The notes under the pieces: generated by a model
What the model saw: the letters and a program-made list of their open reading frames with translations, nothing else
Told to the model about the DNA's origin: nothing
The model's database searches: none
Position numbers and translations under genes: made by a program
Shown: positions 14,786 through 37,111 of the stretch, one piece after another
Layout of the letters: the number at the start of each line of letters is the position of its first letter
Position numbering within the stretch: the first letter of the stretch is position 1
Origin: Aureimonas sp. AU22
GTDB lineage: Bacteria > Pseudomonadota > Alphaproteobacteria > Rhizobiales > Rhizobiaceae
NCBI RefSeq assembly: GCF_001463745.1
Contig: NZ_BBWJ01000040.1
Coordinates: 62,001-126,000, forward strand
Direction: 5' to 3'
DNA length: 64,000 nucleotides

Positions 14786-15298
14786 GTGACGACTTCCCAT
14801 TCGGTCGATCATCCTTCCGGAACGGACGACCCTGCCGACCCTGCGGCGCCTCCTAGACCCCGCAAGATCATCCACGTGGACATGGACGCGTTCTACGCTT
14901 CCGTCGAGCAACGCGATGACCCGGCATTGCGCGGCCTGCCGGTGGCGGTCGGCGGTTCCTCGCAGCGCGGGGTCGTGGCGGCGGCCAGCTACGAGGCCCG
15001 CGCCTTCGGCGTGCGCTCGGCCATGCCATCCGTGACCGCCAAGCGTCGATGTCCCGACCTCGTGTTCGTGAAGCCGCGGTTCGACGTCTACAAATCCGTG
15101 TCCCTGCAGATCCGCGAGATCTTCGCGGAGCACACCGACATCATCGAGCCGCTGTCGCTCGACGAAGCGTATCTCGACGTGACTGAGAACAAGCAGGGCA
15201 TCTCGTCCGCCACCGCCATCGCGGAGGCCATCCGGCGGCGCATTCGCGAAGTGACCGGCCTGACCGCCTCGGCCGGCGTCTCGTACAACAAGTTCTAA
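14786..15298 (+). pseudogene. dinB: DNA polymerase IV (dinB), 5' half, interrupted by a mobile element
   Basis: Y-family translesion polymerase, but only 170 residues where about 360-420 are usual. It keeps the N-terminal metal site [10 protein letters not shown] and the catalytic pair in [10 protein letters not shown], then reads [10 protein letters not shown] and meets TAA at once. The invariant continuation (Leu-Ala-Lys) and the thumb and little-finger domains are missing and appear nowhere else in the window. GTG 14786 has a GGAG site. The break coincides with the start of AT-richer DNA and a three-recombinase operon, so insertion of a mobile element is the likely cause. The fragment cannot be a working polymerase. 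Confidence 0.85.
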
Positions 15299-15366
15299 CG
15301 CACACCTTCAGGCAGTTTTGTCAACAATTAGGGGCAAGCTGCTGTAAAACATTGCAAAATGCGCGT

Positions 15367-15395
15367 TTGACAGGGTTTCTTCCCTAGGGTAACTG
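15367..15395 (+). promoter_or_regulatory. candidate promoter of the recombinase operon
   Basis: Consensus -35 TTGACA at 15367-15372, a 17-base spacer that contains the palindrome CCCTAGGG, and a poor -10 TAACTG at 15390-15395. The first recombinase ATG follows ten bases later with no ribosome site, so a transcript from here would be nearly leaderless. The 107-base segment 15299-15405 is AT-richer than its surroundings and should contain the element's left-end recombination site. Confidence 0.4.
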
Positions 15396-15405
15396 CGTCC
15401 GCCCT

Positions 15406-16791
15406 ATGAAGCATCTGCTGAAACCCGAAGGCATTGCCGAACTAAAGGTCACACTGGTCGTCTTTCCGAATGGCGAGCGGTGCCCGATGCTCGTCACGGG
15501 CGACGGCATCCCCCTGTTTGACCCGACGGTCTGGTCGCTCACGAAGTATCGCAGGAGGAGCGCTTCCACCGTGGAGCAAGCCCTCCGCGGGGCAATGCTC
15601 ATCCACCTGTTCTGCTGGCGACACGGCATCGACCTGGCCGAACGCATCAGGAGCGGCGCGTTCTTCGAGGTCGGAGAACTGGATGCCCTCGCATCGGACG
15701 CCTCGAAACCGTTCACCCGGCTACGGGGGGTATCGAAGGTGGTCCCCGTGGCTGCAACTGCGCAGAAGCGCCGTCGCTCCGTCGCAAGACTGCATCGAAG
15801 GCTTCCGTCGACCACTCGGGCGCAAGTGGTCATTCCCGCCACCGCAATGATCAGACTGCACTACGCCGCAAGCTACCTGAAGTGGCTCGGAGAACGACAG
15901 AGACCCCGTCTCCCCACAGGGGCCGTAAGTGCCGACGAGGCGTCCGCGAGGATGCGGGAATACGGGGCGAGGCTTCTGGAAGTGGTCGAACAGATTGAGG
16001 AGCGGTTGCCGTCAGTTACCGACGCGGACCGCACGAGCCTAGAGCCCGAAGAGCGGATCCGCCTTCTCGCGGTCACCCACCCGGACAGCCTGGACAATCC
16101 TTGGATCGATCCGTTCGTGCGTCTGCGGAACTGGGTGATCGTGCGCTGGCTCCTCGCCACCGGGATGCGACGGGGCGAGCTGCTCGGCCTCAGGATCAAG
16201 GACTTCAACCGGGGTCAAGCCTTTTGCGAGATCAAACGCCGTCATGACGACAAGCGCGACCGTAGACGTAGGCAGCCGAACGCTAAGACATCGGAGCGCC
16301 TCGCCCCCTTGGACGAGGGCTTGACCGAGCTCGGGGAGGAGTACCTCGAAGCCCGCAACCGGATCGAGGCTGCGCGCAAGCACGGCTTCCTCTTCGTCGC
16401 GCAAGACGGCAAGGCCCTTTCGGAAAGCGCAATCACGGGATTGTTCGCGCTGCTTCGGGAAAAGCATCCGGATGTCGGCCCTGTGAGCGCTCACGTCCTC
16501 CGGCATCAGTGGAACGAGGACTTCTCCGCCTACGCCGACGCAATCAAGTTGAGCGCCGAAGAAGAAGTCCGTGAACGCCGCTTGCTGATGGGGTGGTCCC
16601 GAACGTCCAAGATGCCGGGCCACTACTTGAAGCGCCGGACGAAGGTCAAAGCCGACGAACACAGTAGGGACATGCAGCGCCGGTTGATGAAGCACGGGTC
16701 CGCGATCCGGCAACGCATGCAGGACATGGAACGGGCGACCAAGGCGTTGCAGGACGACAGGGCTTGGCTCGGGGAGGTGATCGGTGCGTAA
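15406..16791 (+). CDS. tyrosine recombinase, first of trio (RitA/TnpA-like)
   Basis: 461-residue site-specific recombinase that would cut and rejoin DNA through a tyrosine link. Catalytic residues: R256 (ATGMRRGELLG), H363-x-x-R366-H367 (AHVLRHQW), W397 in the His/Trp position and nucleophile Y407 (MPGHYLKR). The N-terminal 230 residues would hold the arm- and core-binding domains; the C-terminus is helical and charged. Its last eight bases overlap the next recombinase gene. The ATG lacks a clear ribosome site, so translation may start on a leaderless or dinB read-through transcript. Confidence 0.85.
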   Translation: MKHLLKPEGIAELKVTLVVFPNGERCPMLVTGDGIPLFDPTVWSLTKYRRRSASTVEQALRGAMLIHLFCWRHGIDLAERIRSGAFFEVGELDALASDASKPFTRLRGVSKVVPVAATAQKRRRSVARLHRRLPSTTRAQVVIPATAMIRLHYAASYLKWLGERQRPRLPTGAVSADEASARMREYGARLLEVVEQIEERLPSVTDADRTSLEPEERIRLLAVTHPDSLDNPWIDPFVRLRNWVIVRWLLATGMRRGELLGLRIKDFNRGQAFCEIKRRHDDKRDRRRRQPNAKTSERLAPLDEGLTELGEEYLEARNRIEAARKHGFLFVAQDGKALSESAITGLFALLREKHPDVGPVSAHVLRHQWNEDFSAYADAIKLSAEEEVRERRLLMGWSRTSKMPGHYLKRRTKVKADEHSRDMQRRLMKHGSAIRQRMQDMERATKALQDDRAWLGEVIGA

Positions 16792-18340
16792 AACACCCTT
16801 CGGCAAGATGCCAGACGTCGAGTCACCTTACGAGCTTCCCGACCAAGCCGAGACCCGCGATGGCTATGTCTACCGTCCCGGCGACGATCATTGGCCGATC
16901 GTTACCGACATTGGTCGGCTGAACTTCCACTTCGGCGACCTCGGCGTCGCCCACGCGCTGAAGACCGGATTCAAAGGGTTCGTCACAGCACGACTTCGCA
17001 GCGAGAACCCGAGGTCGGTGTATTCGAATTACCAGTTGGTCCGAGGACTGCTCCTTCACATCGCGACCTACGACACGGACGCAGTTGCAATCTCATCCGC
17101 CCACCTGATGAATTACTCCGCTTCGTTCGAAGAGGACCAACGCTACCGTGCGACCGAGGCCAACGACATTGTACGAGTGTGGGCGCGCCTCGGCATCCCG
17201 GCTGTTTCAAGGGAAGCCTTCGTCACCGCCACCGACATGCCGAAAAGTTCAAGGAAGCGAGCGCTTGCGGTCCGGATGCGGTGCCCGATCCAAGGTGCGT
17301 ACACGAACCTTGAGTATGACGGGCTTTATAAGGCTCTCCACGCGGCTTTCGCCGCGGGCGAAATCGCTATCGACAACTACGGCCTCTGCCTTCTCAGCGG
17401 AGCGATCGGGCCCAGGCCTGTTCAGATTGCCGGCCTGACGGTCGGCGATCTGAAGGTCACGATGGGGCCTGCGGGGAAAACGTACGTTCTGGCGATCCCC
17501 CGTGCGAAGCAAAGGGGCGCACGATACCGGACACAGTTCACCGAACGCCCCCTCATCGAAGAGATCGGCATGATCATTGAGGCGCAATCCCTGTTGGTTC
17601 GCGAGAAGGCAAGGCTCTGCGGAATGGCTGACCCCAACGAGGCACCCTTGTTCCCGGCCGTGCACGTGAGCAGTACATTCTTCGACGGTGGGACAACCCC
17701 TGCCCGCCCGACGCCAGCTTCCATCGCGATGAGGATCATCAACGTGATGGAGGGACTGGGCGTGAATTCCGAACGAACCGGAGAGGCGATCAACGTGAAC
17801 GCCACGCGGGCGCGACGCACGGTCGGCACCCGTGCGGCACAAGAGGGCAAATCCCTGGACGAGATCATGGTGATCCTCGACCACACGTCACGTACCGCTG
17901 CACAGAGTTACATCGAGGTTCGTTCCGATCTTCTCCAGCGCCTCGACAAGAAGCTTGCCATCTTGCTGGCACCCATGGCGCAGCGCTTTGCTGGAACCCT
18001 TGCGGCGCGTGGAAACGACGTCGGGCAAGGCATCGAGCGGCATATCCTCGGATCCGTCGACGAGGGCGAAGGGCCCGTGGCCCTGGGTGGCTGCGGGAAG
18101 CACGGCTTCTGCGGCCTTGGGAAGCCAATTGCCTGCTACACGTGCCGACTGTTCCACCCATGGCTGGACGGACCTCACGAAGAGATCCTCGACTGGCTTC
18201 TCGGGAGGCGCAGGCAGATGGCCGAGGACGGATCCATGGCCGTCGCCGTCACACTTGACGACACGATCGTCGCGTGTGCCGAAGTGGTCCGCCAATGCCG
18301 AGCAAGGGCGGCATCGCTGGAAGGCGACCGAAATGGCTGA
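16784..18340 (+). CDS. tyrosine recombinase, second of trio (RitB/TnpB-like)
   Basis: 518 residues from GTG 16784, with GGGGAGG upstream inside the preceding gene. Catalytic set: R211 (GAIGPRPVQIAGL), R344 in TRARRTVGT, H367 (ILDHTSRTAAQSY) and Y376. The usual HxxR histidine is threonine (T341), which may alter or weaken catalysis. The C-terminal region carries a cysteine cluster (GGCGKHGFCG and ACYTC, about 430-455) likely to bind zinc. It overlaps both neighbours by eight bases, so the three are translationally coupled and probably act together. Confidence 0.85.
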   Translation: MRKTPFGKMPDVESPYELPDQAETRDGYVYRPGDDHWPIVTDIGRLNFHFGDLGVAHALKTGFKGFVTARLRSENPRSVYSNYQLVRGLLLHIATYDTDAVAISSAHLMNYSASFEEDQRYRATEANDIVRVWARLGIPAVSREAFVTATDMPKSSRKRALAVRMRCPIQGAYTNLEYDGLYKALHAAFAAGEIAIDNYGLCLLSGAIGPRPVQIAGLTVGDLKVTMGPAGKTYVLAIPRAKQRGARYRTQFTERPLIEEIGMIIEAQSLLVREKARLCGMADPNEAPLFPAVHVSSTFFDGGTTPARPTPASIAMRIINVMEGLGVNSERTGEAINVNATRARRTVGTRAAQEGKSLDEIMVILDHTSRTAAQSYIEVRSDLLQRLDKKLAILLAPMAQRFAGTLAARGNDVGQGIERHILGSVDEGEGPVALGGCGKHGFCGLGKPIACYTCRLFHPWLDGPHEEILDWLLGRRRQMAEDGSMAVAVTLDDTIVACAEVVRQCRARAASLEGDRNG

Positions 18341-20372
18341 AGTCATCCCGTTTGTCCCGAAGGCCCATCTCGCCGCCTTGGCGAACATGGAGGAGTTCGT
18401 ACGCTTTTGCCGCGACGAACTCGCCGTGTTCGGCTCCGATCTCGAATTCGAATCTTTTTCTTGGAACGTTACGCGCTTTTACCATCAGCGAGGCAAGTGC
18501 CATGAGCACTTCCTGAACTTCACCGAGAACACTCCCCGGCTGGGCCGGCTGGGTCCCATAATGCCGGAGCCGTTCGCGAGCCAGGTGAAGGCCTACATCC
18601 GCTACCATGCAGGTCGAAATCCGTCGAAAGCTCCTCCTCTGAATGAGATACGTGCGTTCAGGGCGTTGCTCGCGGCGTTCCTCGACAAAGGGGTGACGCC
18701 GGACCTGGGCTCGGTAGATGCCCATTTGCTCGACCATGCTGTCCAACTTGCTGCCGCAAGGAGACCAGGCAACTATTCAGCGAGCATCGGCGTTCTTTTG
18801 ACGCCAGTTTCGGAGTTCCTGAGAGAAAACAATCTCGCCGCGAACGCCCCGATCGACTGGAAGCACGGCCAAGCGTGGGAATTGTACAACAACCGCTCGA
18901 GAGACGAGCGCCGTGAGGCACTGATGCCTTCAGATGAGGCGCTGCAAGCGCTTCCACGAAGTTTCCGTAAGGCAACCGAACCTCGTGATGTGATCGCCAC
19001 GTCGGTGATGGCGCTGCTGGCGTGCGCCCCAAGCCGCATAAACGAGATCTTCGCACTCCACCACGACTGCGAGATCAAGCCCCTGACGGATGGCGACGAG
19101 GGTTACATGCTGCAATGGGCGGGCTCGAAGGGCCACCACGACTTCGCAAAGGGCATCCCCGCCGTGATGGCCGATGTCGCCAAGGAAGCGCTCGCGCGGC
19201 TGAACAAGCATACGGCCGAAGCACGACGCATCGCGGCTTGGTATGAGCATCATCCCGATCGTCTCTATCTGCCGGACGACTGCGTCCACCTGCGGGGCAA
19301 GGACCTCTCCGGGGCCGACATCGCACGTATCATCGGCTTCAACGAAGCTGGCAACGGACGAGACTGGGCAACCGACCGGAAGCTCGAGCCGATCAAGGGG
19401 ATGCGGTCCTCAGCGGGACAAAGGATCTATGCGTTCCGCTTCTCGGACGTCGAAAGCGCCATCTTGTCCGAGTTGCCGCATGGCTTCCCGATCTTCGACA
19501 AGCAAACGGGTCTCCGCTACAGCGAAGCGCTGATGGTGGTGCGCCGTCAGGAATTTGCCGACCGCGGACGCGGACGATGGCGCTGCATGATTGCCCCCGT
19601 TTCCTATGGCAACATCATGAATAGTTTTCACAAGCCCGACGGCGTCTTCGCGCGCCTTGGACTGTCAACGCCCGAAAATCCGATCGTCCTGAAGACACAC
19701 CAACTGAGACATTGGCTCAACACGGTGGCACAGCGGGGCGGCCTGACTGAGGCGGAAATCGCGGCCTGGAGCGGCCGCTTGGACCGCCGGCAGAACGAAC
19801 CCTACGATCACCGTACGCCCGAGGAGATGCTTCAAGCGAAGCGCCGTAGGGACAAGGAGGTCGCAACGATCGCGGGTACCGCGGTGAGGGTGAACCCACC
19901 GGTGGCGAGGAATGAGGCTGCGGCTCGCGCCGGGCACGGGCATGCGACAGACATCGGCTTCTGCGGGCACGACTTCGCCTCGTCCCCTTGCATGATGTTC
20001 ATGCAGTGCCTGCACTGCACCAAGCACACATGCGTCAAGGGTCACGATCCGCGACACCTGGAAAGGGTGGAGTTCGCCCTCGAGCGCGCTCGGCGAAGCC
20101 TCGCTGAAGCGGAGGCGGCGCTGGCAAAAGAGTACGAGGGTGCGGACGACTGGGTCCGCGCTCATCGCGAGACGATCGAGCGCCTCGAGCAGTTGTACGG
20201 CATCCTGTCCGACCCGACCGTGCCGGACGGTTCGGTGATCCGGCTCGCCAAGTCCGGCCGTTACTCTTTGGTCGAACAGGCCATGCACGACAACGAGGTG
20301 GTCACGGGCGTCCTGCTGCGGGGGAACGTCGGCGGCATGCAGGGGATCGGTGCAGGGACGGCCGGTGCCTAG
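18333..20372 (+). CDS. tyrosine recombinase, third of trio (RitC-like), zinc-ribbon and coiled-coil tail
   Basis: 679 residues from ATG 18333 (an upstream open frame to 17955 is a shadow of the previous gene). Catalytic residues are complete: R235 (APSRINEIFAL), H456-Q-L-R459-H460, W479 and Y491 (NEPYDHRTPEEM). After the catalytic domain comes a cysteine cluster (C544, C553, C559, C562, C567) followed by a predicted coiled coil at about 576-625. It is longer than a simple integrase because of this tail. Its end overlaps the next gene by 23 bases. Confidence 0.85.
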   Translation: MAEVIPFVPKAHLAALANMEEFVRFCRDELAVFGSDLEFESFSWNVTRFYHQRGKCHEHFLNFTENTPRLGRLGPIMPEPFASQVKAYIRYHAGRNPSKAPPLNEIRAFRALLAAFLDKGVTPDLGSVDAHLLDHAVQLAAARRPGNYSASIGVLLTPVSEFLRENNLAANAPIDWKHGQAWELYNNRSRDERREALMPSDEALQALPRSFRKATEPRDVIATSVMALLACAPSRINEIFALHHDCEIKPLTDGDEGYMLQWAGSKGHHDFAKGIPAVMADVAKEALARLNKHTAEARRIAAWYEHHPDRLYLPDDCVHLRGKDLSGADIARIIGFNEAGNGRDWATDRKLEPIKGMRSSAGQRIYAFRFSDVESAILSELPHGFPIFDKQTGLRYSEALMVVRRQEFADRGRGRWRCMIAPVSYGNIMNSFHKPDGVFARLGLSTPENPIVLKTHQLRHWLNTVAQRGGLTEAEIAAWSGRLDRRQNEPYDHRTPEEMLQAKRRRDKEVATIAGTAVRVNPPVARNEAAARAGHGHATDIGFCGHDFASSPCMMFMQCLHCTKHTCVKGHDPRHLERVEFALERARRSLAEAEAALAKEYEGADDWVRAHRETIERLEQLYGILSDPTVPDGSVIRLAKSGRYSLVEQAMHDNEVVTGVLLRGNVGGMQGIGAGTAGA

Positions 20373-20823
20373 GGGCGTACGCAGGAAGCCCCCTGCCCGC
20401 CGTCCCCGCGCGCCTCCCATGACCCCGGAGCGCATCACCCGCATCGTTGCCCTGATCGACGGATGGACGGGGCGCCTCACGTGGGAGGCGCTCTGCGAAG
20501 CGGTCGCGCGCGAGACCGGCGCAAGCTACAGGCGGGCGTCGCTCAACAACTACCTTCAGATCAAGTCTGCCTACAAGGCGTACGTCAAGAAGCCCAACCT
20601 AGCACCAAGCGGGGATGCGACCCCGGCACCAAAACCAAAGGGACCGAGCAGGACGCAGAAGAAGATCAGCAGGCTGGAAAGGAAGGTCGCCGAGCTGACG
20701 GCCGTGAACGATGCCCTGTTGGAGAAGTTCGCCCGTTGGGCGGTGAACGCCGGCTCGCGCGGCCTCGACGAAGCCTTCCTGGATCAGCCACTGGTACAGA
20801 TCAAGCGCTCCGAGAACCGATGA
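20350..20823 (+). CDS. small accessory protein of the recombinase operon (TnpC-like, coiled coil)
   Basis: 157 residues from GTG 20350, which has AGGGG five bases upstream; an internal ATG at 20419 lacks a ribosome site. The N-terminus is very basic (Arg/Pro-rich). A domain follows with helix-turn-helix character (RLTWEALCEAVARETGASYR), then a Lys/Pro linker and a coiled coil (KKISRLERKVAELTAVNDAL). Size, position and coiled coil resemble the small third protein of Tn554-type transposons, but similarity to a named family cannot be established by eye. Confidence 0.7.
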   Translation: MQGRPVPRGVRRKPPARRPRAPPMTPERITRIVALIDGWTGRLTWEALCEAVARETGASYRRASLNNYLQIKSAYKAYVKKPNLAPSGDATPAPKPKGPSRTQKKISRLERKVAELTAVNDALLEKFARWAVNAGSRGLDEAFLDQPLVQIKRSENR

Positions 20824-21221
20824 TGGCGCAGAAGTCGTTCCTCGAAGTGAGCGAAGAGAACCATGCCAAGCTGGTCGAGTTCGTGGAGCGGCTCCGCGCG
20901 GCCGGCCTGAAACTCCCCGGGCGTCTCGGCAAGGTCAACAAGACTGCCGTCGCTAGGGCTTGCGGCTTCGCGCGGGAGGTTTTCCAGCAGAACTCCCGCT
21001 TCGCCCGCACCCTGGAAGAGGCCGTCGCGGACCTCGGCATCGACGTGCCGCAGGCGGAGGAGCCGGAGCCGCGGGACAGCGGGGACAAGTCCAGGATCAT
21101 GCGTCTCGAGCAACAGCTCGCCGCCGCCCGCAGCGAGAACCATGAGTTGAGGCGGCGCTTGCGCCGCTACGAGGCCATCGTGGACCACGTGGCGTCGTCG
21201 GGGCGGAGGGTGATCCCGTGA
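20820..21221 (+). CDS. second small accessory protein of the recombinase operon, coiled coil
   Basis: 133 residues; its ATG overlaps the previous stop codon (ATGA). The N-terminal part (NHAKLVEFVERLRAAG, then NKTAVARACGFAREVFQQN) looks like a small DNA-binding domain, with a possible HTH that resembles the gamma-recombinase partner proteins only in size. The C-terminal part is a coiled coil (RIMRLEQQLAAARSENHEL). Function unknown. It probably works with the recombinases or couples them to the helicase encoded next. It ends in a GTGA overlap with the helicase gene. Confidence 0.7.
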   Translation: MMAQKSFLEVSEENHAKLVEFVERLRAAGLKLPGRLGKVNKTAVARACGFAREVFQQNSRFARTLEEAVADLGIDVPQAEEPEPRDSGDKSRIMRLEQQLAAARSENHELRRRLRRYEAIVDHVASSGRRVIP

Positions 21222-23110
21222 GTTCCTCCCCTGGGGCGGCATGGGGAACGGAGCTGCCGCGCGGCCAGCATCTTATCCGGTTCCTGGCGGGACGACCGGA
21301 GTTCGTCGGCGTGGGCCCCGCGACGGCCCGGCGGATGTGGGATGCCTTCGGGGAAAGCCTCCACGACATCCTCGCCGAAGGCAGTGTCGAGCGCCTGACG
21401 AAGGTCCTTCCGCGGACACAGGCCGAGATCGTCTGCGATGCATGGCGGAACCAGAGGGCCGTCACCGAGGCGGTCGCGTTCTTCGACCGGCACGGCATCG
21501 GCATCCGTTACGCCCGAAAGGCCGTGGAGCTGTGGGGCGACGAAGCCATCGCCAAGCTCCAAGAGAACCCCTACCGCCTGTTGACGCTCTGCGCCTGGAG
21601 AGAAGTGGATCAGGCCGCGATGCGACTCGGGGTCCGACTGGACGACCGACGACGGCAGGTCGGGGCGGTGGAGGCGGCGCTCTACGAGCGGCTCGACGGG
21701 AAACACACGGTCACGTCCCTGGAGAAGCTCGTCCGCCATGCATGCACGCTCCTCGGCGCGACGCCTGCGGATGCGGAACGCGCCGTGACCATCGCGGTGG
21801 ACGACGGCGCGGCCATCCCTTGTCCGGGTGGCTACCAGCCTGCGGGGGCCGCCTACGCCGAGCGGTTCATCGAGACCCGCATCCGTGCGGCGCTGGCCGA
21901 TGACGGACAAGCGAGGGACCTGCTGGCGAGCCGACCCACGCCGGTTGCGATGTCGACCTTCCTCGAACGTTACAACAGTCTCGCCTCCCAGCGACTGACG
22001 AGCGAGCAGGCAGACGCGGTGACGATGGCGTTGAACCATCGGTTCGCGATCCTCGTCGGGGGCGCGGGGGTCGGCAAAACCACGACGCTCCGCGCCATAA
22101 ACGAGGCCGCCGAGCAATTCGGATTCCACGTACACCAGCTCGCGCTCGCCGGGAGGGCCGCGCAGCGAGTGGCGGACGCGACCGGCCGGGCGGCCCGTAC
22201 GATCGCCTCTTGGCTCTGGGATGCCTCGAAAGGCCGCGCGGGAACGGGAGCGCACACGCTCGTCGTCGTCGACGAAGCGAGCATGCTGGACCTACCCACG
22301 CTCTACCGCATCCTGTTCCATCTGCACGAGGATGCGAGGCTGCTGCTGGTCGGGGACGTCGCCCAGCTCGCCCCGATCGGATACGGCCTCACCTTGCACC
22401 GTCTGGTTTCCAGCCCCCGGATCCCGCGTGTCGAGTTGACCCGCATCATGCGGGCCGACGAGGCGACGGGAATCCCGGCGGTGTCCAGAGCCGTACGCGA
22501 AGGCAGGTTGCCCGAGCTACCGACTTACAGGGACGGTCGCACAGGGTGCAGCGTCGTCGGATGCGGGCCGGAAAGCGTCATCGACGAAATCGAGCGGATC
22601 CGCGACGACCTCCGCGACGAGGAAGTGCAGGTCGTGGGAGCGACCTATGCCGGTCCCGCCGGGATCGACGCGATCAACACGTACTTCCACCGCTACAACG
22701 CGCATGGCCGCTTGCGGCTCGCGCGCTTCGCCGAGGGGGACCCGGTCATCTGGACGAAGAACGACCACGAGCGCGGCCTTTGGAACGGAACCATGGGGCA
22801 TGTCCTCGTCGTGAAGGAAGACCGCCTTACTGTCCGGCTCGACGGTCGGACCTTCGACCTCTTGGCTGCCGACCTGTCCGGCCGGATCGACCTCGCCTAC
22901 GCTATCAGCACGCACAAGGCGCAAGGGTCGCAGTGGGGCACGATCATCGTGCCGTTGAGTTCCAGCCGTCTTTTCGATCGGGCTCTCCTCTACACGGCGC
23001 TGACCCGAGCCGAGCGACGCGTGGTCTTGGTCGGCGACCTCGGGCACCTGCACCGTGTGGTGACACAGCAGCCGAGTTCGCTTGCGCGCGACGTCGCGCT
23101 TGCCGTCTGA
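21218..23110 (+). CDS. RecD2-like superfamily 1B DNA helicase
   Basis: 630-residue 5'-3' DNA helicase of the RecD2/TraA type. Residues about 15-130 form a helix-hairpin-helix region (FLAGRPEFVGVGPATARRMW). The motor has Walker A GGAGVGKT (281-288), Walker B VVDEASML (DEAS at 352-355), motif III GDVAQLAPIG, a UvrD/RecD C-terminal motif STHKAQGSQW and motif VI LLYTALTRAERR. It is somewhat shorter than free-standing RecD2 (about 720-740). GTG 21218 overlaps the preceding stop by four bases, so it is the last gene of the recombinase operon. A replicative or post-insertion role in mobilising the element is inferred. Confidence 0.85.
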   Translation: MSSSPGAAWGTELPRGQHLIRFLAGRPEFVGVGPATARRMWDAFGESLHDILAEGSVERLTKVLPRTQAEIVCDAWRNQRAVTEAVAFFDRHGIGIRYARKAVELWGDEAIAKLQENPYRLLTLCAWREVDQAAMRLGVRLDDRRRQVGAVEAALYERLDGKHTVTSLEKLVRHACTLLGATPADAERAVTIAVDDGAAIPCPGGYQPAGAAYAERFIETRIRAALADDGQARDLLASRPTPVAMSTFLERYNSLASQRLTSEQADAVTMALNHRFAILVGGAGVGKTTTLRAINEAAEQFGFHVHQLALAGRAAQRVADATGRAARTIASWLWDASKGRAGTGAHTLVVVDEASMLDLPTLYRILFHLHEDARLLLVGDVAQLAPIGYGLTLHRLVSSPRIPRVELTRIMRADEATGIPAVSRAVREGRLPELPTYRDGRTGCSVVGCGPESVIDEIERIRDDLRDEEVQVVGATYAGPAGIDAINTYFHRYNAHGRLRLARFAEGDPVIWTKNDHERGLWNGTMGHVLVVKEDRLTVRLDGRTFDLLAADLSGRIDLAYAISTHKAQGSQWGTIIVPLSSSRLFDRALLYTALTRAERRVVLVGDLGHLHRVVTQQPSSLARDVALAV

Positions 23111-23206
23111 TGGATCTCGCCTCGTCAAATGGGCGGATGATCGCGCGGAGCCAGGACCCTGGATCCACGGTCCTGCCAGCATTCGCGCTGTTCCAGAATA
23201 CCCTCA

Positions 23207-23272
23207 GGGCGGACGCGGCCCGGTCCGGCGCGCTCCCCATAGCGCCGTAGCCGGACCGGGCCGCGTCCGCCC
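23207..23272. terminator. perfect 23-bp inverted repeat between converging genes
   Basis: Arms 23207-23229 and 23250-23272 are exact reverse complements, all G/C-rich. The 20-base loop holds a further 5-bp pairing (GCGCT/AGCGC). It lies between the helicase gene (+) and the thioredoxin-fold gene (-), where a two-way terminator is expected, but neither side has a T-run. It might instead be an element end or protein-binding site. The rest of 23111-23464 has no convincing gene; a minus-strand frame there (about 23290-23450) is unrecognised. Confidence 0.55.
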
Positions 23273-23464
23273 GTCCCCGTGCCCAGCACCTCGCAGCGGC
23301 GGCGCCGGAGTCGATCGGCGGCCCGGTAGTGAACGACCGGATGCCGTCCAGCCTTCAAGACACGCGTCGGGACAAGCTTTAGCAGGAGCCCGCCGACGCG
23401 TCCCGGCCGCTTCATGCACAAGAGCGTCCAGCACTGCGTCGGCAAGCATTTCGCGGGAGGAGCC

Positions 23465-24220
23465 TTACTTTGCCGCGGCGTCGAGGATCGCCGCGAACTG
23501 CTCGGGCGGAAGCGCCCCGCGGTACTTCTTGCCGTCGATGAAAAAGGTCGGCGTTGAATCGACACCGAACTCGCTCGCGCCCCTGTCCTTCGTCGCCACG
23601 ACCTTCGCCTGGAGGTCGGCGTCGGACAGGCATGCCCTAAAGCTTTCCTCCGTGAAGCCCGCGATGCGCGCGATCGACAGAAGCCTGTTCGCCGCGTCGT
23701 CCGCGTGCGCCCAGCTCTCGGATTGCGCGAACAGGGCGTCGACCATCGCCGTGCGCCCGTTCTCGCCAGGCGTGCAGCGCGCCAGCATGGAGGCGGCGAC
23801 CGCGCGCGGGTCGAACGGGAACTCGCGGACGATCAGCTTGGCCTTGCCCGTGTCAAGGTAGTCCCGCTTCAGCGTCGGGTAGGTGTTGGCGTGGAAGGCC
23901 GCGCAGTGGTCGCAGGTCATCGAGGCATACTCGACGATGGTGATCGGCGCGTCCGTGCGTCCGATCACCACGTCGGGCAGCACTTGGCCGGACATCAGCG
24001 CGGCGACGTCGACCTCGCCGTCGGCTTCGGGAGCGGGTGTGGACGGGGATGGCGCGGACGGCGCTGCCACCGCAGTCGGCGCCGCCGGGGCCTCGCCCAC
24101 CGCCGCAGCGGGTGACGTCGTCTCGTCCGAGCATCCCGCGAGCGCGAGGAGGACGAGGCAGAGGGCGGGCGCAAGGGATCGGTGCGCGCGCCGACGGGCG
24201 CCGCGGATGGATCGGGTCAT
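23465..24220 (-). CDS. DsbA-family thioredoxin-fold lipoprotein
   Basis: 251-residue periplasmic thiol-disulfide protein. The N-terminus has basic residues, a hydrophobic stretch and a lipobox LALAGC (C30), followed by an Ala/Pro linker and a DSBA domain from about residue 80. The active site is C103-DH-C106 (MTCDHCAAFH) and the cis-Pro loop is STPTFFIDGKKYRG. It resembles the DsbA/BdbD group used to form or maintain disulfides. It is third in a likely minus-strand unit behind mntH and a secreted protein (gap 86 bases). Confidence 0.85.
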   Translation of the reverse strand: MTRSIRGARRRAHRSLAPALCLVLLALAGCSDETTSPAAAVGEAPAAPTAVAAPSAPSPSTPAPEADGEVDVAALMSGQVLPDVVIGRTDAPITIVEYASMTCDHCAAFHANTYPTLKRDYLDTGKAKLIVREFPFDPRAVAASMLARCTPGENGRTAMVDALFAQSESWAHADDAANRLLSIARIAGFTEESFRACLSDADLQAKVVATKDRGASEFGVDSTPTFFIDGKKYRGALPPEQFAAILDAAAK

Positions 24221-24306
24221 GGGAATGGTCCTCTATGCGCGCGGGCGGCCCTCGGGCGGCGGCGCGGGAAACGGAAACGGGGACTGGTTGGCCGAAAGGG
24301 CCGGGT

Positions 24307-24630
24307 TCAGGTCCGCGTCCGGTCCGGGGGGCGCTCGTCGGGCATGCGGTCGCGCCCGAGCAGGAGATCGGCCGGAACGGTGCCGATGCGCGCGGCCGAG
24401 AACCAGGGCGAGCCAATCTCCGGATGGACGTTCCCTACCAGCCCGAAGCCGCAGTGCACGTCGTCCGGCATGTCGTTGCCGTCCGTGCCGTCGGCGGGCG
24501 CGGCATCGCCGGTGTCCGTCCCGACCCCGACCACCACGGTCTCGGCGCAGCCGGGCACCGTCGCCGCCCCGTGGGCGAGGGAGGCGAACAGGGAGGCCAG
24601 CAGGACGAGCGCGAGCGCGGCGAACTTCAT
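24307..24630 (-). CDS. secreted hypothetical protein
   Basis: 107 residues with a clear signal peptide (MKFAALALVLLASLFASLAHGA) and a mature part containing two cysteines and many aspartates. No family recognised. It lies between mntH (97 bases upstream) and the DsbA-like lipoprotein on the same strand; its two cysteines could be a substrate of the latter, which is a guess. Signal peptide and codon pattern make it a likely real gene. Confidence 0.6.
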   Translation of the reverse strand: MKFAALALVLLASLFASLAHGAATVPGCAETVVVGVGTDTGDAAPADGTDGNDMPDDVHCGFGLVGNVHPEIGSPWFSAARIGTVPADLLLGRDRMPDERPPDRTRT

Positions 24631-24727
24631 GCGCCCATGATCCCCGCTCGGACCCCCGCGTCAACCGCGGCGATGCCGCAGTCCGGCAAGCACGAGGGGT
24701 TCCGGCAGCCCGGGACGACGCGACGGG

Positions 24728-26083
24728 TCAATGCGACCGGGCGCCCAGGACGAAGTCGAAGAGCAACTTCACGTTCAGGAGCGCGATGGCCACGGCGATC
24801 GCCAACGCCACGCCGGCCAGCCAGCGCGGAGCCACGAGCTCGCCCATCTTGCGACGATCCATCGTGAACATGACCAGCGGGAACACCGCGAACGAGAGCT
24901 GGAGGCTGAGGACGACCTGCGTGAGGATCAGGAGGCGGGCGGTGCCGCTCTCGCCGAACCAGATCGTCACCGAGGCCGCTGGGACGATGGCGATGATCCG
25001 GGTGATCAGGCGCCGGAGCCAGGGCGCGAGCCGGATGTCGAGGAAGCCCTCCATCACGATCTGCCCGGCCAGCGTCGCCGTGACGGTGGAGTTGATGCCG
25101 CAGCACAGGAGCGCGACGCCGAACAGGGTCGGCGCGACGGCGGCCCCGAGGATCGGCGCGAGCAGGCTGTGCGCCTCGCCGAGCTCGGCGATCCCGGTCC
25201 GTCCCGTTGTGTGGAAGGCCCCGGCCGCCAGGATCAGTATCGACGCGTTGACGAGGAGCGCGAAGCAGAGCGCGACGGTGGAGTCGATCGTGGCGAAGCG
25301 CAGCGCCTGGTGCTTCTCCGGCAGGGTCGTCCCGTAGGCGCGCGTCTGCACGATGCCCGAATGGAGATAGAGGTTGTGGGGCATCACGGTGGCCCCGAGG
25401 ATTCCGAGCGCGAGGTACAGCATCTCGGGGTTCGACACGATCTCGGTGGTCGGGGCGAACCCGCGGATCACGTCGCCCCAGTTCGGGTCGACCATGGCGA
25501 TCTGGACGGCGAAGCACACCGCGATGACGCCGAGCAGCGTCACGATCAGCGCCTCGACCCATCGGAAGCCGAGCCGCTGGAGCCATAGGATCAGGAACAC
25601 GTCGACGGCGGTGATCAGGACGCCGATCTCGAGCGGGATCCCGAACAGGAGGTTGAGGCCGATGGCGGTGCCGATGACCTCCGCGATGTCGGTGGCGACG
25701 ATGGCGATCTCGGCGAGGAACCAGAGCGGCAGCGCGACGTAGCCCGGGTATGCGTCGCGGCAGGCCTGTGCGAGGTCACGACCCGACGCGATCGCCAGGC
25801 GCGCGCAGAGCGACTGCAACACGATCGCCATGACGTTCGACAGGAGCGCGACGAAGAGCAGGGTGTAGCCGAAGGCCGAGCCCCCGGCGATCGACGTCGC
25901 CCAGTTGCCGGGATCCATGTAGCCGACGGCAACGAGGTAGCCCGGACCGAGGAAGGCCGCCGCCTTGCGCCATGGCGGCGCGTTGCGGTCGACGCGGACG
26001 GTGCGGTGCACGTCGAGGAGCGATCCGTCCCCGCGGTCCCGCTTCCACCCCGCCTCGTCCGTGCATTCGTTCGAACCAGACAT
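24728..26083 (-). CDS. mntH: Nramp divalent metal transporter MntH
   Basis: Proton-coupled importer of Mn(II) and similar ions in the inner membrane. 451 residues with about eleven membrane segments; the Nramp signature [15 protein letters not shown] in TM1 supplies the metal-binding Asp and Asn, and MPHNLYLHS matches the conserved loop/TM6 motif region. ATG 26083 is preferred; a GTG at 26098 would add five residues. It diverges from the mntR gene across a 117-base region holding a 32-bp inverted repeat. Confidence 0.93.
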
Positions 26084-26125
26084 CGTTCCGCGCCCCACTC
26101 CGAGATCGCGTAGAGTTGTTCCTCA

Positions 26126-26157
26126 GCACATGGTTTGTCCAGTAGCAAACTTTGTGC
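26126..26157. promoter_or_regulatory. candidate MntR operator between mntH and mntR
   Basis: Imperfect inverted repeat: GCACATGGTTTG (26126-26137) and CAAACTTTGTGC (26146-26157) match in 10 of 12 positions around an eight-base spacer. It is located centrally between the divergent mntH and mntR genes in locally AT-richer sequence, as expected for a metal-repressor operator controlling both. Confidence 0.55.
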
Positions 26158-26200
26158 CCGGAGCCGATTTCCGCTAGATGAGGGAGACGGAGGACGGCGG

Positions 26201-26629
26201 ATGACGGGCGGGATCGACGGAACGGATGCGGCAACGACGGCGGCGCGGTTCGCGCGCGTGCGCAAGGCCAACCAGTCGGAGCTGTCGGAGGACTACGTCG
26301 AGATGATCGACGACCTGATCGCGGAGCGCGGCGAGGCAAGGGCGGCCGACCTCGCCGAGCGCTTCGGCGTCTCCCCCGGCACTGTCGCCCGTACCGTGCA
26401 GCGGCTAGCCCGGGACGGTCTGGTCAGCTCCGAGCCGTACCGGGCAATCTTCCTGACGGCAGAGGGCAAGGAACTCGCCGAACGGGTCAGGGCGCGGCAC
26501 CGCCTGGTCGTCGACTTCCTGAAGGCGATCGGCGTGGCGCCCGCGTCGGCGGAGATGGATGCCGAGGGGATCGAGCACCATGTCGGGAAGGACACGCTCG
26601 ACGCCTTCCGCAGGTTCCTGACGCGCTGA
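26201..26629 (+). CDS. mntR: DtxR/MntR family manganese-responsive repressor
   Basis: 142 residues. N-terminal winged HTH (SEDYVEMIDDLIAERG; VSPGTVARTVQRLARDGLV) and C-terminal metal-binding/dimer domain with EGIEHHVGKDTLDAF, the DtxR-type ligand helix. It lacks the SH3 domain of longer DtxR members, as expected for MntR. ATG 26201 follows GGAGGACGGCGG. Encoded divergently from mntH, which it probably represses when Mn(II) is plentiful. Confidence 0.9.
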   Translation: MTGGIDGTDAATTAARFARVRKANQSELSEDYVEMIDDLIAERGEARAADLAERFGVSPGTVARTVQRLARDGLVSSEPYRAIFLTAEGKELAERVRARHRLVVDFLKAIGVAPASAEMDAEGIEHHVGKDTLDAFRRFLTR

Positions 26630-26693
26630 GGGTTACGCACGGCGGGACGTCCGATCCGGAGCGACGGCGCGGGGCCGCCCGGGCCTTGCCGCC

Positions 26694-27710
26694 TCAGCGC
26701 TCCGCGTCCGCCGGATCCTCGGCCAGCGCTTCGGGCCGGCTGACGGGCACGGCGTCCATCGACGTCTCGACGGAGAGGCCCTTCGTCCCGAGCCGCTTGA
26801 GCATGTCGCGATACCGCGGGTGCATCCCGCCGTCGACGTAGGACATCGGCATGCCCGCCCGGCCCTCGGACAACAGGGACTGGAGCAACCTGTCGTCCCT
26901 CTCGCGCTTGGCGGCCACCTCGGGCGCGACGCGCGTCTCGAGCGGCGGGCAAGAGGCCGCCGGATCGATCGGCTGGCGGTCCTTGCGCCGCGCGTCGAAC
27001 ACGTAACGCCCGCCGCAGGCAGCGACCTCGGGCTCCCTCCGCGTCACCTCGAAGATGTCGTACCCGAGCTTCAGGTTGCGCCAGAACGCAATGTTCGGGT
27101 CGCTCCGGTGGCGCGCCATCTGCTCGGCGGTCATCCGGAATGGGAAGGACTGAACCTGGAAGTCGCCCTGGCCGAGCGCGAAAGCCCTCTCCGCGTCGGC
27201 GTAGACCTCGCCGACGCCCTCGTCGGTCATCGCGAAGCACCCGGACGACGAGCAGGCCCCGTGCACCATCAGCGAGTCGCCCGTGTAGCCGAGCGACTTC
27301 TCGAGCGGGTTGGGGTAACCGAGGTTGAAGGAGCGGTGGTACTTCGAGTTCGGGTTCATCAGCGCCCGGGTGACCCGGTAGAAGCCCTCGGGCGCCTGGC
27401 GGTCGCCGTTCGTCTTCTTGGGACCGAGCTTTCCGGACCATCGGCAGAGCGGATGGGTCTTGTGCGGGGCGTAGCGACCGTCCGCGCCGAGCTTCCAGAC
27501 CTCGAGTTCGCTCTCCTCCTTGAAGATGCGCACCAGGATCGAGCCTGGCGGACGGGCCTTCGCCTCGGCGTAGGCCGTGGGCACGAGGTCCTTGTAGGTC
27601 TCATCCGACACCGACATGCAGCCGCCCATGGACGCGAGACCGAGAAGGGCGACGGCCAGCGCTGCTCGTCGCGTGGCGGTGCGGGCGCGGCGTCGTGCGG
27701 GAAGGTGCAT
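26694..27710 (-). CDS. L,D-transpeptidase (YkuD-fold) lipoprotein
   Basis: 338-residue envelope protein like the murein L,D-transpeptidase-family YafK group. A signal with lipobox ending SMGGC (about residues 24-28) is followed by the YkuD domain; its catalytic stretch is MVHGACSSSGCFAMTDEGVG, with His and the nucleophile Cys in the SSGC motif. ATG 27710 is chosen because it begins the signal peptide; the open frame further upstream is non-coding. It converges on mntR. Precise role (cross-linking, lipoprotein attachment or release) unknown. Confidence 0.85.
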   Translation of the reverse strand: MHLPARRRARTATRRAALAVALLGLASMGGCMSVSDETYKDLVPTAYAEAKARPPGSILVRIFKEESELEVWKLGADGRYAPHKTHPLCRWSGKLGPKKTNGDRQAPEGFYRVTRALMNPNSKYHRSFNLGYPNPLEKSLGYTGDSLMVHGACSSSGCFAMTDEGVGEVYADAERAFALGQGDFQVQSFPFRMTAEQMARHRSDPNIAFWRNLKLGYDIFEVTRREPEVAACGGRYVFDARRKDRQPIDPAASCPPLETRVAPEVAAKRERDDRLLQSLLSEGRAGMPMSYVDGGMHPRYRDMLKRLGTKGLSVETSMDAVPVSRPEALAEDPADAER

Positions 27711-27853
27711 CTCGTTCCGAGGGTTGGTCGTGGCGGGTCTCCGTCCATCATCGACGGCCGGGCTGTCGCGGGGATGACCCGGGGCCGCAACCGTCGCGGC
27801 CGCCAAGAGACGCCTCGATCCGGCGGAAGTGAGGCGACCGCAGCCGTCGGTCC

Positions 27854-28276
27854 TCAATGCGTCTCGTGCAGGCACTCGCCGTGATCGCCGAGGACCTCGA
27901 TCACCCGGCACTCCGCGACCGAATGGTTCGAGCAGTTCGTCATCCGCGCGATCTCCGCACGCAGCGCCGTCAGCCGGGCGATCTTGTGGTCGATGTCGGC
28001 GAGATGCGCGGCGGCGATCCGGTCGGCGCTCTCGCACGGACGGTCCGGCTCCCCGGCCAGCGCCAGGAGTTCGCGGATGGGCTCGATCTCGAAGCCGAGC
28101 TCGCGGGCGTGCCGGATGAAGCGCAGGCGGCTGAGGTCGCCCGCGTCGTAGAGGCGGCGGTTGCCCTCCGTCCGCGGCGGCGCGGCCAAAAGGCCGATCT
28201 GCTCGTAGTACCGGATCGTCGGCACCTTGATGCCGCTCGCGCGCGACGCCTCGCCGATCGGAACGCCTTGCGTCAT
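27854..28276 (-). CDS. MerR family heavy-metal regulator (CadR/PbrR/ZntR type)
   Basis: 140-residue metal-responsive activator. The N-terminal HTH (IGEASRASGIKVPTIRYYEQ) is followed by a dimer helix and a C-terminal metal loop. Cysteines C81 (DRPCESADR), C115, C123 and C135 plus several histidines suit Zn(II), Cd(II) or Pb(II) rather than Cu(I) or Hg(II). It is encoded divergently from the P-type ATPase gene, with a MerR-type promoter between them, and so should switch on that ATPase. Confidence 0.88.
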   Translation of the reverse strand: MTQGVPIGEASRASGIKVPTIRYYEQIGLLAAPPRTEGNRRLYDAGDLSRLRFIRHARELGFEIEPIRELLALAGEPDRPCESADRIAAAHLADIDHKIARLTALRAEIARMTNCSNHSVAECRVIEVLGDHGECLHETH

Positions 28277-28284
28277 TTTTCCTC

Positions 28285-28315
28285 TTGCTCCTCTAGCCGC
28301 TAGAGGAAGTACGCC
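28285..28315 (+). promoter_or_regulatory. MerR-type promoter/operator of the Zn/Cd/Pb ATPase gene
   Basis: -35 TTGCTC (28285-28290), 19-base spacer, -10-like TACGCC (28310-28315). The dyad TCCTCTAG / CTAGAGGA (28289-28296 and 28300-28307, 3-base centre) sits inside the overlong spacer, the defining layout of MerR-activated promoters. The known CadR/ZntR operators have the same shape. Confidence 0.75.
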
Positions 28316-28344
28316 TCTCCCGACACGCACGCAAGGAGAGCGCC

Positions 28345-30528: not shown

Positions 30529-31127
30529 GCGCCGCCGCCGACGACCTCCTTCGCATCGGGCCGGCGATCGTCCTCGCCGTCACCGTGGCGTGGCTTGCGC
30601 TCGCCACCCGTCGGACGTCCCGGGAGATCGGCGGGCGTGCCTATGGCTTCGGGAGGAGTCCCCGCCAGACGCTGGCGCGCGTCCTGTTCGGCGCGACCGT
30701 CGTGGGCGGTCTCGCGGCCCTCGGGCTCCATGCGGCGGGGAGCGCGTCGGCCGCGATCGCACCGCTCGCGGGCGAGGCCTACGCCGTCCGTCTGTCCGGT
30801 CTGGCGCTGGCCGTCGCGGGGCAGGTCCTGACGGTCGTGGCCCGGAGCGGGATGGGCCGACGCTGGCGGGTCGGCATCCCGGACGAGGCGCCTGACGCCC
30901 TGGTCACGACGGGTTTATTTGGCCTCAGCCGCAACCCCGTGTTCCTCGGGATGCTCGCGATGGCGGCAGGGCTCGCGGTGGCCGTGCCGTCCCCGGCGAT
31001 GATCGGCTGCGCGCTGGCCTTCTGGGTCGCCTGCGAGGTCCAAGTCCGGGACGAGGAGCGCTTCCTCGAACACTCGTTCGGCCCCGCATACACCGCATAC
31101 CGAAGCGCCGTGCGGCGCTGGATCTGA
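30525..31127 (+). CDS. ICMT/PEMT-like membrane methyltransferase family protein
   Basis: 200 residues with four or five membrane segments and the C-terminal NPVFLGMLA, VRDEERFLEHSFGPAYTAYR pattern of isoprenylcysteine carboxyl methyltransferase-like proteins. GTG 30525 overlaps the ATPase stop (GTGA), so it is co-translated with it. Members of this family often accompany heavy-metal ATPases in alphaproteobacteria, but their substrate is unknown; a role in lipid or lipoprotein modification is only inferred. Confidence 0.8.
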   Translation: MSAAADDLLRIGPAIVLAVTVAWLALATRRTSREIGGRAYGFGRSPRQTLARVLFGATVVGGLAALGLHAAGSASAAIAPLAGEAYAVRLSGLALAVAGQVLTVVARSGMGRRWRVGIPDEAPDALVTTGLFGLSRNPVFLGMLAMAAGLAVAVPSPAMIGCALAFWVACEVQVRDEERFLEHSFGPAYTAYRSAVRRWI

Positions 31128-31147
31128 CATGGAACAGGAGTGACCCC

Positions 31148-31591
31148 ATGGGACGCAGACCGACGACGATCATCGCCGGGGCGCTCGCGCTCCTCACCGT
31201 ACCCGCGTTCGCAGCCGAGACCGTCGACGTGTTCTCGACGTCGGGCTGCGGCTGCTGCATCGGCTGGATGAAGCACCTCGAGGAGGCAGGGTTCGAGGTC
31301 TCGAACGAGAACCTCGCCATGGCGGACCTCTACGCCAAGAAGACGGGCGCCGGACTGAAGCCGGGCCAGACCTCCTGCCACACGGGCTTCGTCGGCGGCT
31401 ACGTCGTCGAGGGCCATGTCCCGGCAGCCGAGGTGAAGCGCCTGCTCGCCGAGAAGCCGGACGCGATCGGGCTCGCCGTTCCCGACATGCCTGCGGGAAG
31501 CCCGGGCATGGGGACCAGCGACGAACCCTACGAGGTGCTCCTAGTCGCCCGCGACGGCACGTCGACGGTGTTCGCACGGTACCCGAAGTGA
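31148..31591 (+). CDS. DUF411 periplasmic metal-binding protein
   Basis: 147 residues with signal peptide (to about A22) and a thioredoxin-like DUF411 domain: STSGCGCC (metal-binding cysteines) and TSCHTGFVGGYVVEGHVP. The family is linked to copper handling in the periplasm. First of three overlapping genes (DUF411, PCuAC, SCO) and 20 bases behind the methyltransferase gene, so it could extend the ATPase operon. Confidence 0.85.
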   Translation: MGRRPTTIIAGALALLTVPAFAAETVDVFSTSGCGCCIGWMKHLEEAGFEVSNENLAMADLYAKKTGAGLKPGQTSCHTGFVGGYVVEGHVPAAEVKRLLAEKPDAIGLAVPDMPAGSPGMGTSDEPYEVLLVARDGTSTVFARYPK

Positions 31592-32774: not shown

Positions 32775-32936
32775 TCGACGAAACGGGCCGAGGGGACTGC
32801 GCCTCCGCGTCCAACCCGGTCCCGACGCCATCGCAGCCGGACCGAGCCGTTCGAATGCGAACGGTTTTCTCCATCGGAAACCAATCCTCCGCCCGCATCC
32901 TGCCGCCGCTTGAAGGCAAGGGACCGGAGCGATCGC

Positions 32937-33347: not shown

Positions 33348-33413
33348 ACCGCCCGACGGATCCGGGCGAGCCTTCCTGGCAGGCGCACGGTCGGGAAGGC
33401 TCGCGCCGACGGG

Positions 33414-37102: not shown

Positions 37103-37111
37103 ACCCGGCCC

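Follow-up and report, generated by a model that had tools for sequence, protein, structure and literature searches.

A GInt-type island in dinB of Aureimonas and a gene 5-helicase cassette behind its recombinase operon

The 64,000-nucleotide window analysed here (C40:62001-126000 of its own genome, that of Aureimonas sp. AU22) contains an operon of three tyrosine recombinase genes, two small genes and a RecD2-type helicase gene, inserted in dinB, the gene for DNA polymerase IV. The 5' part of dinB (14786..15295, + strand; PF00817, E 1.2e-48) is cut by the inserted island and closed by an in-frame TAA (15296-15298) that is island sequence. The left attachment region (attL; 15284..15306, + strand) comprises host TACAAC, the 6-nt spacer AAGTTC (15290-15295) and the island end TAACGCACACC; the junction reads TACAAC AAGTTC TAACGC, and the integration point among the dinB codons lies between ...AACAAGTTC and CTCGCC.... 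A search of the same genome located a DinB C-terminal domain fragment at C40:132816-133127 on the + strand, in the 3' part of dinB (C40:132540-133172), which corresponds to about window position 70540 and thus lies beyond the window; the dinB frame resumes there after ...CTTATAA AAATTT CTCGCCAAG. From the positions of this 3' part and the left junction, the island therefore spans C40:77296-132533 (55,238 bp), with its right end about 6.5 kb beyond the window. This end is AT-rich, with a GC content of 0.42 in the terminal 100-bp bin versus 0.56-0.72 before and 0.65-0.70 after it. A sequence-only reading of the window had placed the recombinase trio in dinB, which the truncated 5' part at 14786-15295 and the empty sites of related genomes bear out. 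However, it let the element end at 23110, whereas the rest of dinB is found at C40:132540-133172; the six genes are the left end of a large mobile island, not the whole element.

All six open reading frames (ORFs) lie on the + strand at 15406-23110, behind the truncated dinB. The first encodes a ginA-like tyrosine recombinase of 461 amino acids (15406..16791, +), which was assigned through the Pfam integrase family PF00589 (E 1e-13) and a family hidden Markov model; R255, K294, H363xxR366, W397 and Y407 are conserved in the alignment (75 rows; catalytic roles assigned by eye). The second, a ginB-like recombinase of 518 amino acids (16784..18340, +), matches NF041502 (NCBIfam integrase_1) with E 2.5e-99 and 333 bits against a cut-off of 350 bits, carries C-terminal cysteines and lacks a His where the first catalytic His would be expected (79 rows). 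The third, a ginC-like recombinase of 679 amino acids (18333..20372, +; ATG at 18333), was placed by the family alignment and matched no Pfam or NCBIfam family. Its residues R235, H456xxR459, W479 and Y491, again with roles judged by eye, recur in 90% or more of the 86 rows aligned, and its Cys-rich tail is conserved. By this inspection it is the GinB-like proteins that lack the first catalytic His and the GinC-like ones that have the full set; in the parts available of two publications, GinC is described as a recombinase without catalytic residues (PMC5385486, PMC10214605). Gene 4 (20419..20823, +; 134 amino acids) is ginD by position, and its model shows a helix-turn-helix (HTH) followed by a long coiled-coil helix (AlphaFold2 mean pLDDT 80.5, pTM 0.39). 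A ginD-family gene stands behind ginC in 81 of the 83 loci compared and is thus close to universal (named exceptions in this count: L069 and L138, where the match or contig ends, and L111). Gene 4, earlier taken for one of two accessory genes, is therefore a core gene.

The last two genes form the pair on which this study centres. Gene 5 (20820..21221, +; 133 amino acids) is VPA1267/DUF6262-like, with sub-threshold matches to NF040697 (E 4.4e-13, 49.6 bits against a 90-bit cut-off) and PF19776 (E 1.1e-4, below cut-off). Its model also shows an HTH and a long coiled-coil helix (AlphaFold2 mean pLDDT 79.1, pTM 0.46); a fold search against the PDB gave nothing at E ≤ 0.001. Comparison with GinD profiles yielded an hhalign probability of 96.6%, a type of score that coiled coils inflate, and gene 5 is possibly a GinD paralogue. 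Gene 6 (21218..23110, +; 630 amino acids) encodes a RecD2-type superfamily 1B helicase (TIGR01448, E 9.8e-103; 344.6 bits against the 500-bit cut-off of NCBIfam RecD2). The motifs GGAGxGK, DExSM, VGDxxQLxP, HKxQGS and YTAxxR are kept in 22 of 22 aligned rows. The window protein lacks the N-terminal part of most relatives, and its profile match begins at position 88 of 722. Its best solved relative is PDB 3e1s (E 4.5e-88), which, like 3gp8 and 3gpl, we take to be RecD2 of Deinococcus radiodurans. The Deinococcus protein is a host helicase and is not known to belong to a recombinase operon.

The genes overlap by 8 nt at ginA/ginB and ginB/ginC and by 4 nt at gene 4/gene 5 and gene 5/helicase. 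The coupling through overlapping frames that had been described for the whole operon holds at these four junctions, but the ginC-ginD junction is uncertain: a GTG start at 20350 gives a 23-nt overlap and the ATG at 20419 a 46-nt gap. Between two Aureimonas islands, gene 5 has a ratio of non-synonymous to synonymous substitutions of 0.10 and the helicase one of 0.17, compared with 0.16-0.33 for the four gin genes.

The island recurs within the genus. When 61 related genomes were searched with the left flank, 17 besides the window's own matched well over the dinB stretch, and 14 of these were examined (all but G386, G407 and G413): three with the split dinB pattern and 11 others. The three further island genomes are, by inferred names, A. 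phyllosphaerae (G399), A. jatrophae (G392) and A. ureilytica (G400). Counted in 500-bp bins with the two junction bins excluded, the A. phyllosphaerae island differs from that of the window (G000) at 6 positions and the A. jatrophae island at 10, excluding a block of about 5 kb with 375 differences. This block (window ~38000-43500, C40:100000-105500) covers genes of a resistance-nodulation-division (RND) pump and was probably exchanged by recombination, judging from its divergence. Differences jump at both island ends, and the flanks differ strongly among the near-identical islands; this pattern in three Aureimonas genomes indicates transfer. The A. ureilytica island is diverged: identity is 90.7% in the leftmost 9.8 kb and 85.9% in the rightmost 5.9 kb, and its middle is rearranged and holds different cargo. 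Empty dinB sites, which the sequence-only reading had suggested looking for in related strains, are present: all 11 examined are colinear and uninterrupted, reading AACAAGTT[C/T]CT[C/G]GCC (in L054 only a few bases past the site are visible), alongside the four genomes of the genus with the island. The attL spacer is AAGTTC in three islands and AAGTTT in A. ureilytica; at the right end (attR) it is AAATTT in the window island, AAGTTC in A. phyllosphaerae, AAATTC in A. jatrophae and AAGTTC in A. ureilytica. AAATT[T/C] occurs in none of the 11 empty sites. For these four islands, this would agree with a spacer carried in by the element itself, a feature reported for GInts and for strand-biased circularizing integrative elements (SEs). 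As a general target of such islands dinB was rejected: it lies upstream of ginA only in three Aureimonas loci among the 67 with at least 600 bp of upstream sequence.

By its plan the island is of the GInt type, also named the Tn6571 family (PMC10121019, as available in part), with genes 1-4 as ginABCD; the assignment follows plan, gene sizes and gene order, not published Gin sequences. Like a GInt, it has at its left end a coupled operon of three recombinases and a small HTH-type protein, followed by large variable cargo, an AT-richer right end, site-specific insertion and a distribution among related species. In the available part of the GInt paper, each of the four gin genes is needed for excision, as a circle, and for integration, GinD is likened to TnpC, and the genes named as required in a minimal synthetic GInt that reportedly integrates and excises are the four gin genes (Bardaji et al. 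2017, PMC5385486). There, cargo is reported to begin at the ginD stop (PMC5385486), and GInt cargo is put at 2.5 to at least 70 kb; here the island measures 55,238 bp and its cargo varies between sister islands. Imperfect direct repeats of 10-17 nt are given for the ends of GInts; the core common to both ends here is only about 6-7 nt. The island differs from the published GInts in that gene 5 and a RecD2-type helicase stand directly behind ginD, and in its target, since the targets named in the available text of PMC5385486 are ssb, an ABC transporter gene and others. The word dinB is absent from that text, and we regard the island as a new GInt-type island. In the portions available of the main texts of PMC5385486, PMC10214605, PMC3414803 and PMC10121019, the word helicase does not occur either.

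The affiliation with RIT or Tn554 elements proposed in the sequence-only reading is not supported. RITs share the three overlapping tyrosine recombinase genes, but, according to the part available of PMC3414803, they measure about 3.5 kb in all, whereas the trio alone here takes up 5 kb (15406-20372) and the island 55 kb; membership was rejected on size, insertion site and the position of the island end. RITs are further marked by inverted repeats flanking ritA and ritC and by the RitA/B/C sequence families. SEs are likewise built around several recombinase genes and a small protein, and a copy-out movement needing replication has been proposed for them; the accessible text states that they are distinct from GInts by sequence (PMC10214605), and our own comparison with them is by description. 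The same text finds empty sites missing in three of seven GInt strains (PMC10214605). For Tn554, tnpA, tnpB and tnpC would be expected at attTn554, and the insertion in dinB and the three recombinase-type genes led us to reject membership. Identity of the window trio with the gamma-mobile-trio was rejected too: its recombinases gave no GmtY match (NF040693, cut-off 340 bits), and its own genome none at E ≤ 1e-40. The attTn554 site lies in radC.

The order ginA-ginB-ginC-ginD recurs in other bacteria, as does the order of all six linked same-strand genes. An alignment of five GinC sequences served as query and retrieved 152 relatives; the 80 highest-ranking ones, together with L055-L057, which have full-length GinC, made up 83 loci. 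They provided 84 GinC rows (L073, without a full GinC, was omitted, and two loci have a second operon), of which 74 were informative, defined as having the helicase or at least 3.5 kb behind ginC; ten rows that reach a contig end or have less than 3.5 kb were set aside, among them L096, with gene 5 at the contig end. Among the informative rows, gene 5 and the helicase are both present in 23 of 74 and both absent in 51, and no row has only one of them. The share of 23 in 74 may be overstated, with four query sequences from operons with the helicase and one from an operon without it, and three of the 23 pair-bearing rows are from Aureimonas, two of them identical in GinC. Where the pair occurs, its two frames overlap at 22 of 23 loci, by 4 nt at 18 of them, by 8 nt at three and by 1 nt at one, and in L057 they are 30 nt apart. 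The distance from the ginD stop to the start of gene 5 ranges from -26 to +24 nt in the 23 loci. Start codons were picked nearest the upstream stop, a choice that favours small gaps. In Paraburkholderia elongata (L115:7194-21129), two gin-type operons stand in tandem, both with gene 5, the second reaching the end of the locus.

On the GinC tree (all trees used here are quick trees), operons with and without the pair stand side by side, and its presence requires at least 16 changes. Clustering by helicase is weak (18 changes for the helicase group versus 20.2 in shuffles, as low in 73 of 500). Helicase and GinC distances nevertheless correlate (Spearman 0.57, or 0.45 without L056, L057 and L060; none of 2000 permutations as high either way), and the two trees have 8 of 20 splits in common. 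We read this as a mostly vertical history with many losses and some exchange, as far as such trees can tell. In Pseudomonas, L129 with the pair and L126 without it are 92% identical through ginABCD, and the similarity ends 13 nt before the ginD stop; loss in L126 would be the simpler reading, because L134, which branches outside both, has the pair. Since the pair comes and goes between neighbouring operons, it is an optional cassette rather than the mark of a family, and the notion that the element represents a distinct family was too strong.

The same pair is found behind other recombinase operons. On the Vibrio plasmid pMAO6, the Shewanella plasmid pJNE10-2-NDM and the Providencia plasmid pPROV224-1, gmtY, a large integrase-family/VPA1269 gene, gmtX, gene 5 and an AAA ATPase (helicase) gene follow one another with overlaps; the names gmtY and gmtX are those of the plasmid annotation, and the large gene is presumably gmtZ of the gamma-mobile-trio. 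These came from a search of plasmid records with gene 5 of L177 at E ≤ 1e-8 (44 records, five opened), in which a Klebsiella electrica record had a gmt-type operon interrupted by insertion sequences and a Pseudoalteromonas record cut the stretch at its start behind gene 5. The gamma-mobile-trio thus resembles the window operon in having a VPA1267-family gene and a helicase behind its trio, and differs in having other recombinase genes than Gin. The pair also stands behind a third type of trio in L177 and L178 and behind a fourth in L176; the large second protein of L177 had no match among the plasmid records. With the window helicase as query at E ≤ 1e-60, seven plasmid records were matched and five opened. 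On Bradyrhizobium pBoOM27 the annotation gives two recombinases, three hypothetical genes whose sizes and order are like those of gin genes, and an ATPase; on Rhizobium pRspNXC14a it gives two recombinases, short hypothetical genes and an ATPase. The other three records, from Rhodovastum, Thioclava and Halomonas, are taken up below.

Exchange between operon classes is seen most directly in DNA identity. The Vibrio gamma-mobile-trio locus L279 and the gin locus L181 are 93.0% identical from the start codon of gene 5 to 45 nt past the helicase stop, and no other DNA in 14 kb can be aligned between them. L177 and L181 are 83.4% identical from the gene 5 start to the same point, and nothing else aligns. 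The first four genes of L181 match Gin models (E 2.3e-74, 8.6e-21, 3.4e-42 and 2e-18), whereas the best match of the L279 trio is 6.8e-5 (GmtY), its two partners being unmatched. Genes 5 and 6 are a discrete cassette that is present or absent as a unit, stands directly behind the small gene of the recombinase operon, is translationally coupled and has been exchanged between operon classes. The conservation of the helicase beside recombinase operons in other genomes, on which the sequence-only reading had made its proposal depend, is seen in the 23 informative gin rows, the gamma-mobile-trio and the two other operon types, and the available main text on RITs (PMC3414803) contains no mention of a helicase. 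Among the papers listed in the literature searches, the main gamma-mobile-trio paper excepted, we found no description of this cassette behind GInt operons or of its exchange with the gamma-mobile-trio; since NCBI names a VPA1267 family, the pair may already be known for the latter. Those elements are reportedly the subject of Mahata et al. 2024. The primer list for island VPaI-6 of V. parahaemolyticus, in the part available, includes a product of 1,879 nt within VPA1266, whose number adjoins that of VPA1267 (PMC1464126); this would fit the gene 5-helicase order there too.

The helicase itself belongs to a group of its own. A profile search of 398 Pseudomonadota genomes at E ≤ 1e-40 matched 33 genomes with 38 matches, 30 with a locus and 8 weaker ones without. 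All ten matches of at least 526 bits have gene 5 upstream, in one case separated from the helicase by two inserted genes, and all ten lie behind recombinase operons. Of the weaker matches, the 19 that have a locus all lack gene 5 within 1.5 kb. The VPA1267 family (E ≤ 1e-6) is found in nine of the 398 genomes, exactly the nine non-window genomes whose helicases reach 526 bits, the window's own gene 5 falling below this threshold. Gene 5 occurs in none of 80 viral RecD-like loci. The best viral RecD-like score is 425 bits, compared with at least 684 among the gin helicases used to train the model. Pair-linked helicases that were not used in training lie at 469-709 bits, a small margin over the top viral score. 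A 47-row tree unites the 29 pair-linked helicases with the truncated L154 (SH-aLRT 99) and sets them apart from 17 others. Neither this tree nor the 80 viral loci, all without gene 5, support an ordinary host or phage RecD-like gene as an explanation.

We propose, with about even confidence, that the element is a GInt-type island in which a GinABCD recombination machine is joined by a gene 5-helicase accessory cassette that acts in movement. Most likely, we infer, the pair assists the recombination machinery as an optional accessory and would unwind element DNA or help to replicate it during movement; it would be accessory because many GInts lack it. In this reading, (i) GinA, GinB, GinC and GinD would form the recombination machine, by analogy with the plan of tested ginABCD elements; (ii) gene 5 would dock on the recombination complex or the attachment DNA as a second GinD-like factor and (iii) load the helicase; (iv) the helicase would unwind a strand-exchanged or nicked intermediate, allowing the element to be copied out, replicated or resolved. 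The outcome would be a higher yield or greater host independence of movement. The strand-separation or replication step suggested in the sequence-only reading is plausible: a helicase that ends recombinase operons, once together with a primase, fits such a step, and the authors of the SE study propose copy-out, which the missing GInt empty sites would suggest (PMC10214605, available in part). The one hint of this kind comes from the Rhodovastum atsumiense plasmid RHOApc, where a RepB-type primase gene (L139:7491-8758; PF16793, E 2.5e-28) shares 4 nt with gene 5, which in turn shares 1 nt with the helicase gene; the upstream genes match no Gin model.

Several observations weigh against a role in movement. 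The primase is a single case, with no relative in any of the other loci examined. The 51 of 74 informative gin rows without the pair, together with the minimal synthetic GInt (PMC5385486, in its available part), mean that the pair is not needed for basic recombination. GmtY is found in 5 of 398 genomes, with the match in G499 below the family cut-off; leaving out G790, which meets a contig end, the four GmtY loci with several kb downstream have no helicase match, and the large gene of L286 is followed by an ORF with a weak gene-5-like match (2.8e-6). L154 (502 bits, truncated) lacks gene 5, and its 16 kb of sequence gave no match to a Gin model; no recombinase is annotated beside a truncated helicase relative on a Thioclava plasmid or a more distant RecD-like gene on a Halomonas plasmid. 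The helicase also matches PADLOC candidate-defence models (RecD_like, 126.5 bits; type IV RecD, 167.2 bits). A more far-reaching version, in which an adaptor-plus-helicase cassette traded between island classes supplies strand separation for copy-out, in one case linked to a primase, making its carriers replicative and leaving their sisters host-dependent or cut-and-paste, is less likely than not.

The PADLOC matches would suit a pair that is anti-phage defence or DNA-conflict cargo at the entry point behind ginD. GInts are known to carry defence genes (PMC10121019, in part), this island has GajA- and GajB-type genes, cargo is reported to begin at the ginD stop (PMC5385486, in part), and L126 and L129 cease to be similar 13 nt upstream of that stop. 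We nevertheless consider defence cargo unlikely, given the fixed first position on the same strand with overlapping frames in 22 of 23 loci, the location of all ten carriers of at least 526 bits in the 398 genomes behind recombinase operons, the lack of gene 5 in the 80 viral loci and the resemblance of gene 5 to GinD. Alternatively, the pair could act after transfer rather than in recombination, by maintaining the element or by protecting or processing DNA that enters by transformation or conjugation. The helicase resembles relaxase helicases (TraA_Ti, 164 bits), 4 of the 7 plasmid records matched by the helicase and 23 of the 44 matched by gene 5 are typed as conjugative, and near-identical islands are present in three genomes of one genus; the coupling, however, is to recombinase genes, and such a role seems improbable to us. 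An RIT/Tn554-type transposon with a captured host helicase, ending at 23110, would account for three coupled recombinase genes, but is very improbable with the element ending at C40:132533, a helicase group separate from the 17 other RecD-like helicases, and a gene order and island plan that fit a GInt.

For the questions of how islands with multiple tyrosine recombinases move and why an empty site is missing for some of them, a cassette gained and lost among close operons and common to two named element classes offers natural pairs with and without it in which an added step can be tested. The cassette also occurs in gamma-mobile-trio elements of plasmids, some of them conjugative and with resistance genes, and would bear on the spread of their cargo if it affects movement.

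About 100 bp behind the helicase lies a perfect, GC-rich 23-bp inverted repeat with a 20-nt loop (23207..23272). It has one mismatch in the diverged sister island, where the surrounding 201 bp are 97% identical. As part of the cassette the hairpin was rejected, a perfect inverted repeat of at least 10 bp being present in only 4 of 23 loci, three of them from Aureimonas.

The island cargo (23111..64000, continuing to C40:132533) comprises metal and arsenic resistance, transporters, Gabija-type defence genes and, beyond the window, a second dinB. The metal and arsenic genes at 28345-48344 encode two heavy-metal P-type ATPases, an AcrB-family RND pump with a CusB/HlyD-type partner, ArsB, a flavin mononucleotide reductase and ArsC. 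The Gabija-type genes lie on the - strand at window 61367-62767 and C40:124774-126489 (window 62774 onward, past the window end), with matches of 559 bits for GajB and 312.7 bits for GajA (238 amino acids searched); further out, the neighbouring gene (C40:126987-128957) matches an IetA-like ATPase with 89.5 bits. Near the right end, a complete second dinB ORF lies on the - strand at C40:131122-132321 (L008:6122-7321; window ~69122-70321, beyond the window). It is present in all four islands, identical in A. phyllosphaerae and A. jatrophae and with 89.6% whole-length identity in A. ureilytica; by hand count it has 9 differences from the common 18-nt empty-site core TACAACAAGTTCCTCGCC in both island lineages, with a background dinB identity of about 74-78% over aligned stretches. 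It may replace the gene broken by the insertion while itself being refractory as a target. To the left of the interrupted dinB, window 10715-14206 holds a Ku gene (PF02735) and a long ORF that by eye resembles DNA ligase D.

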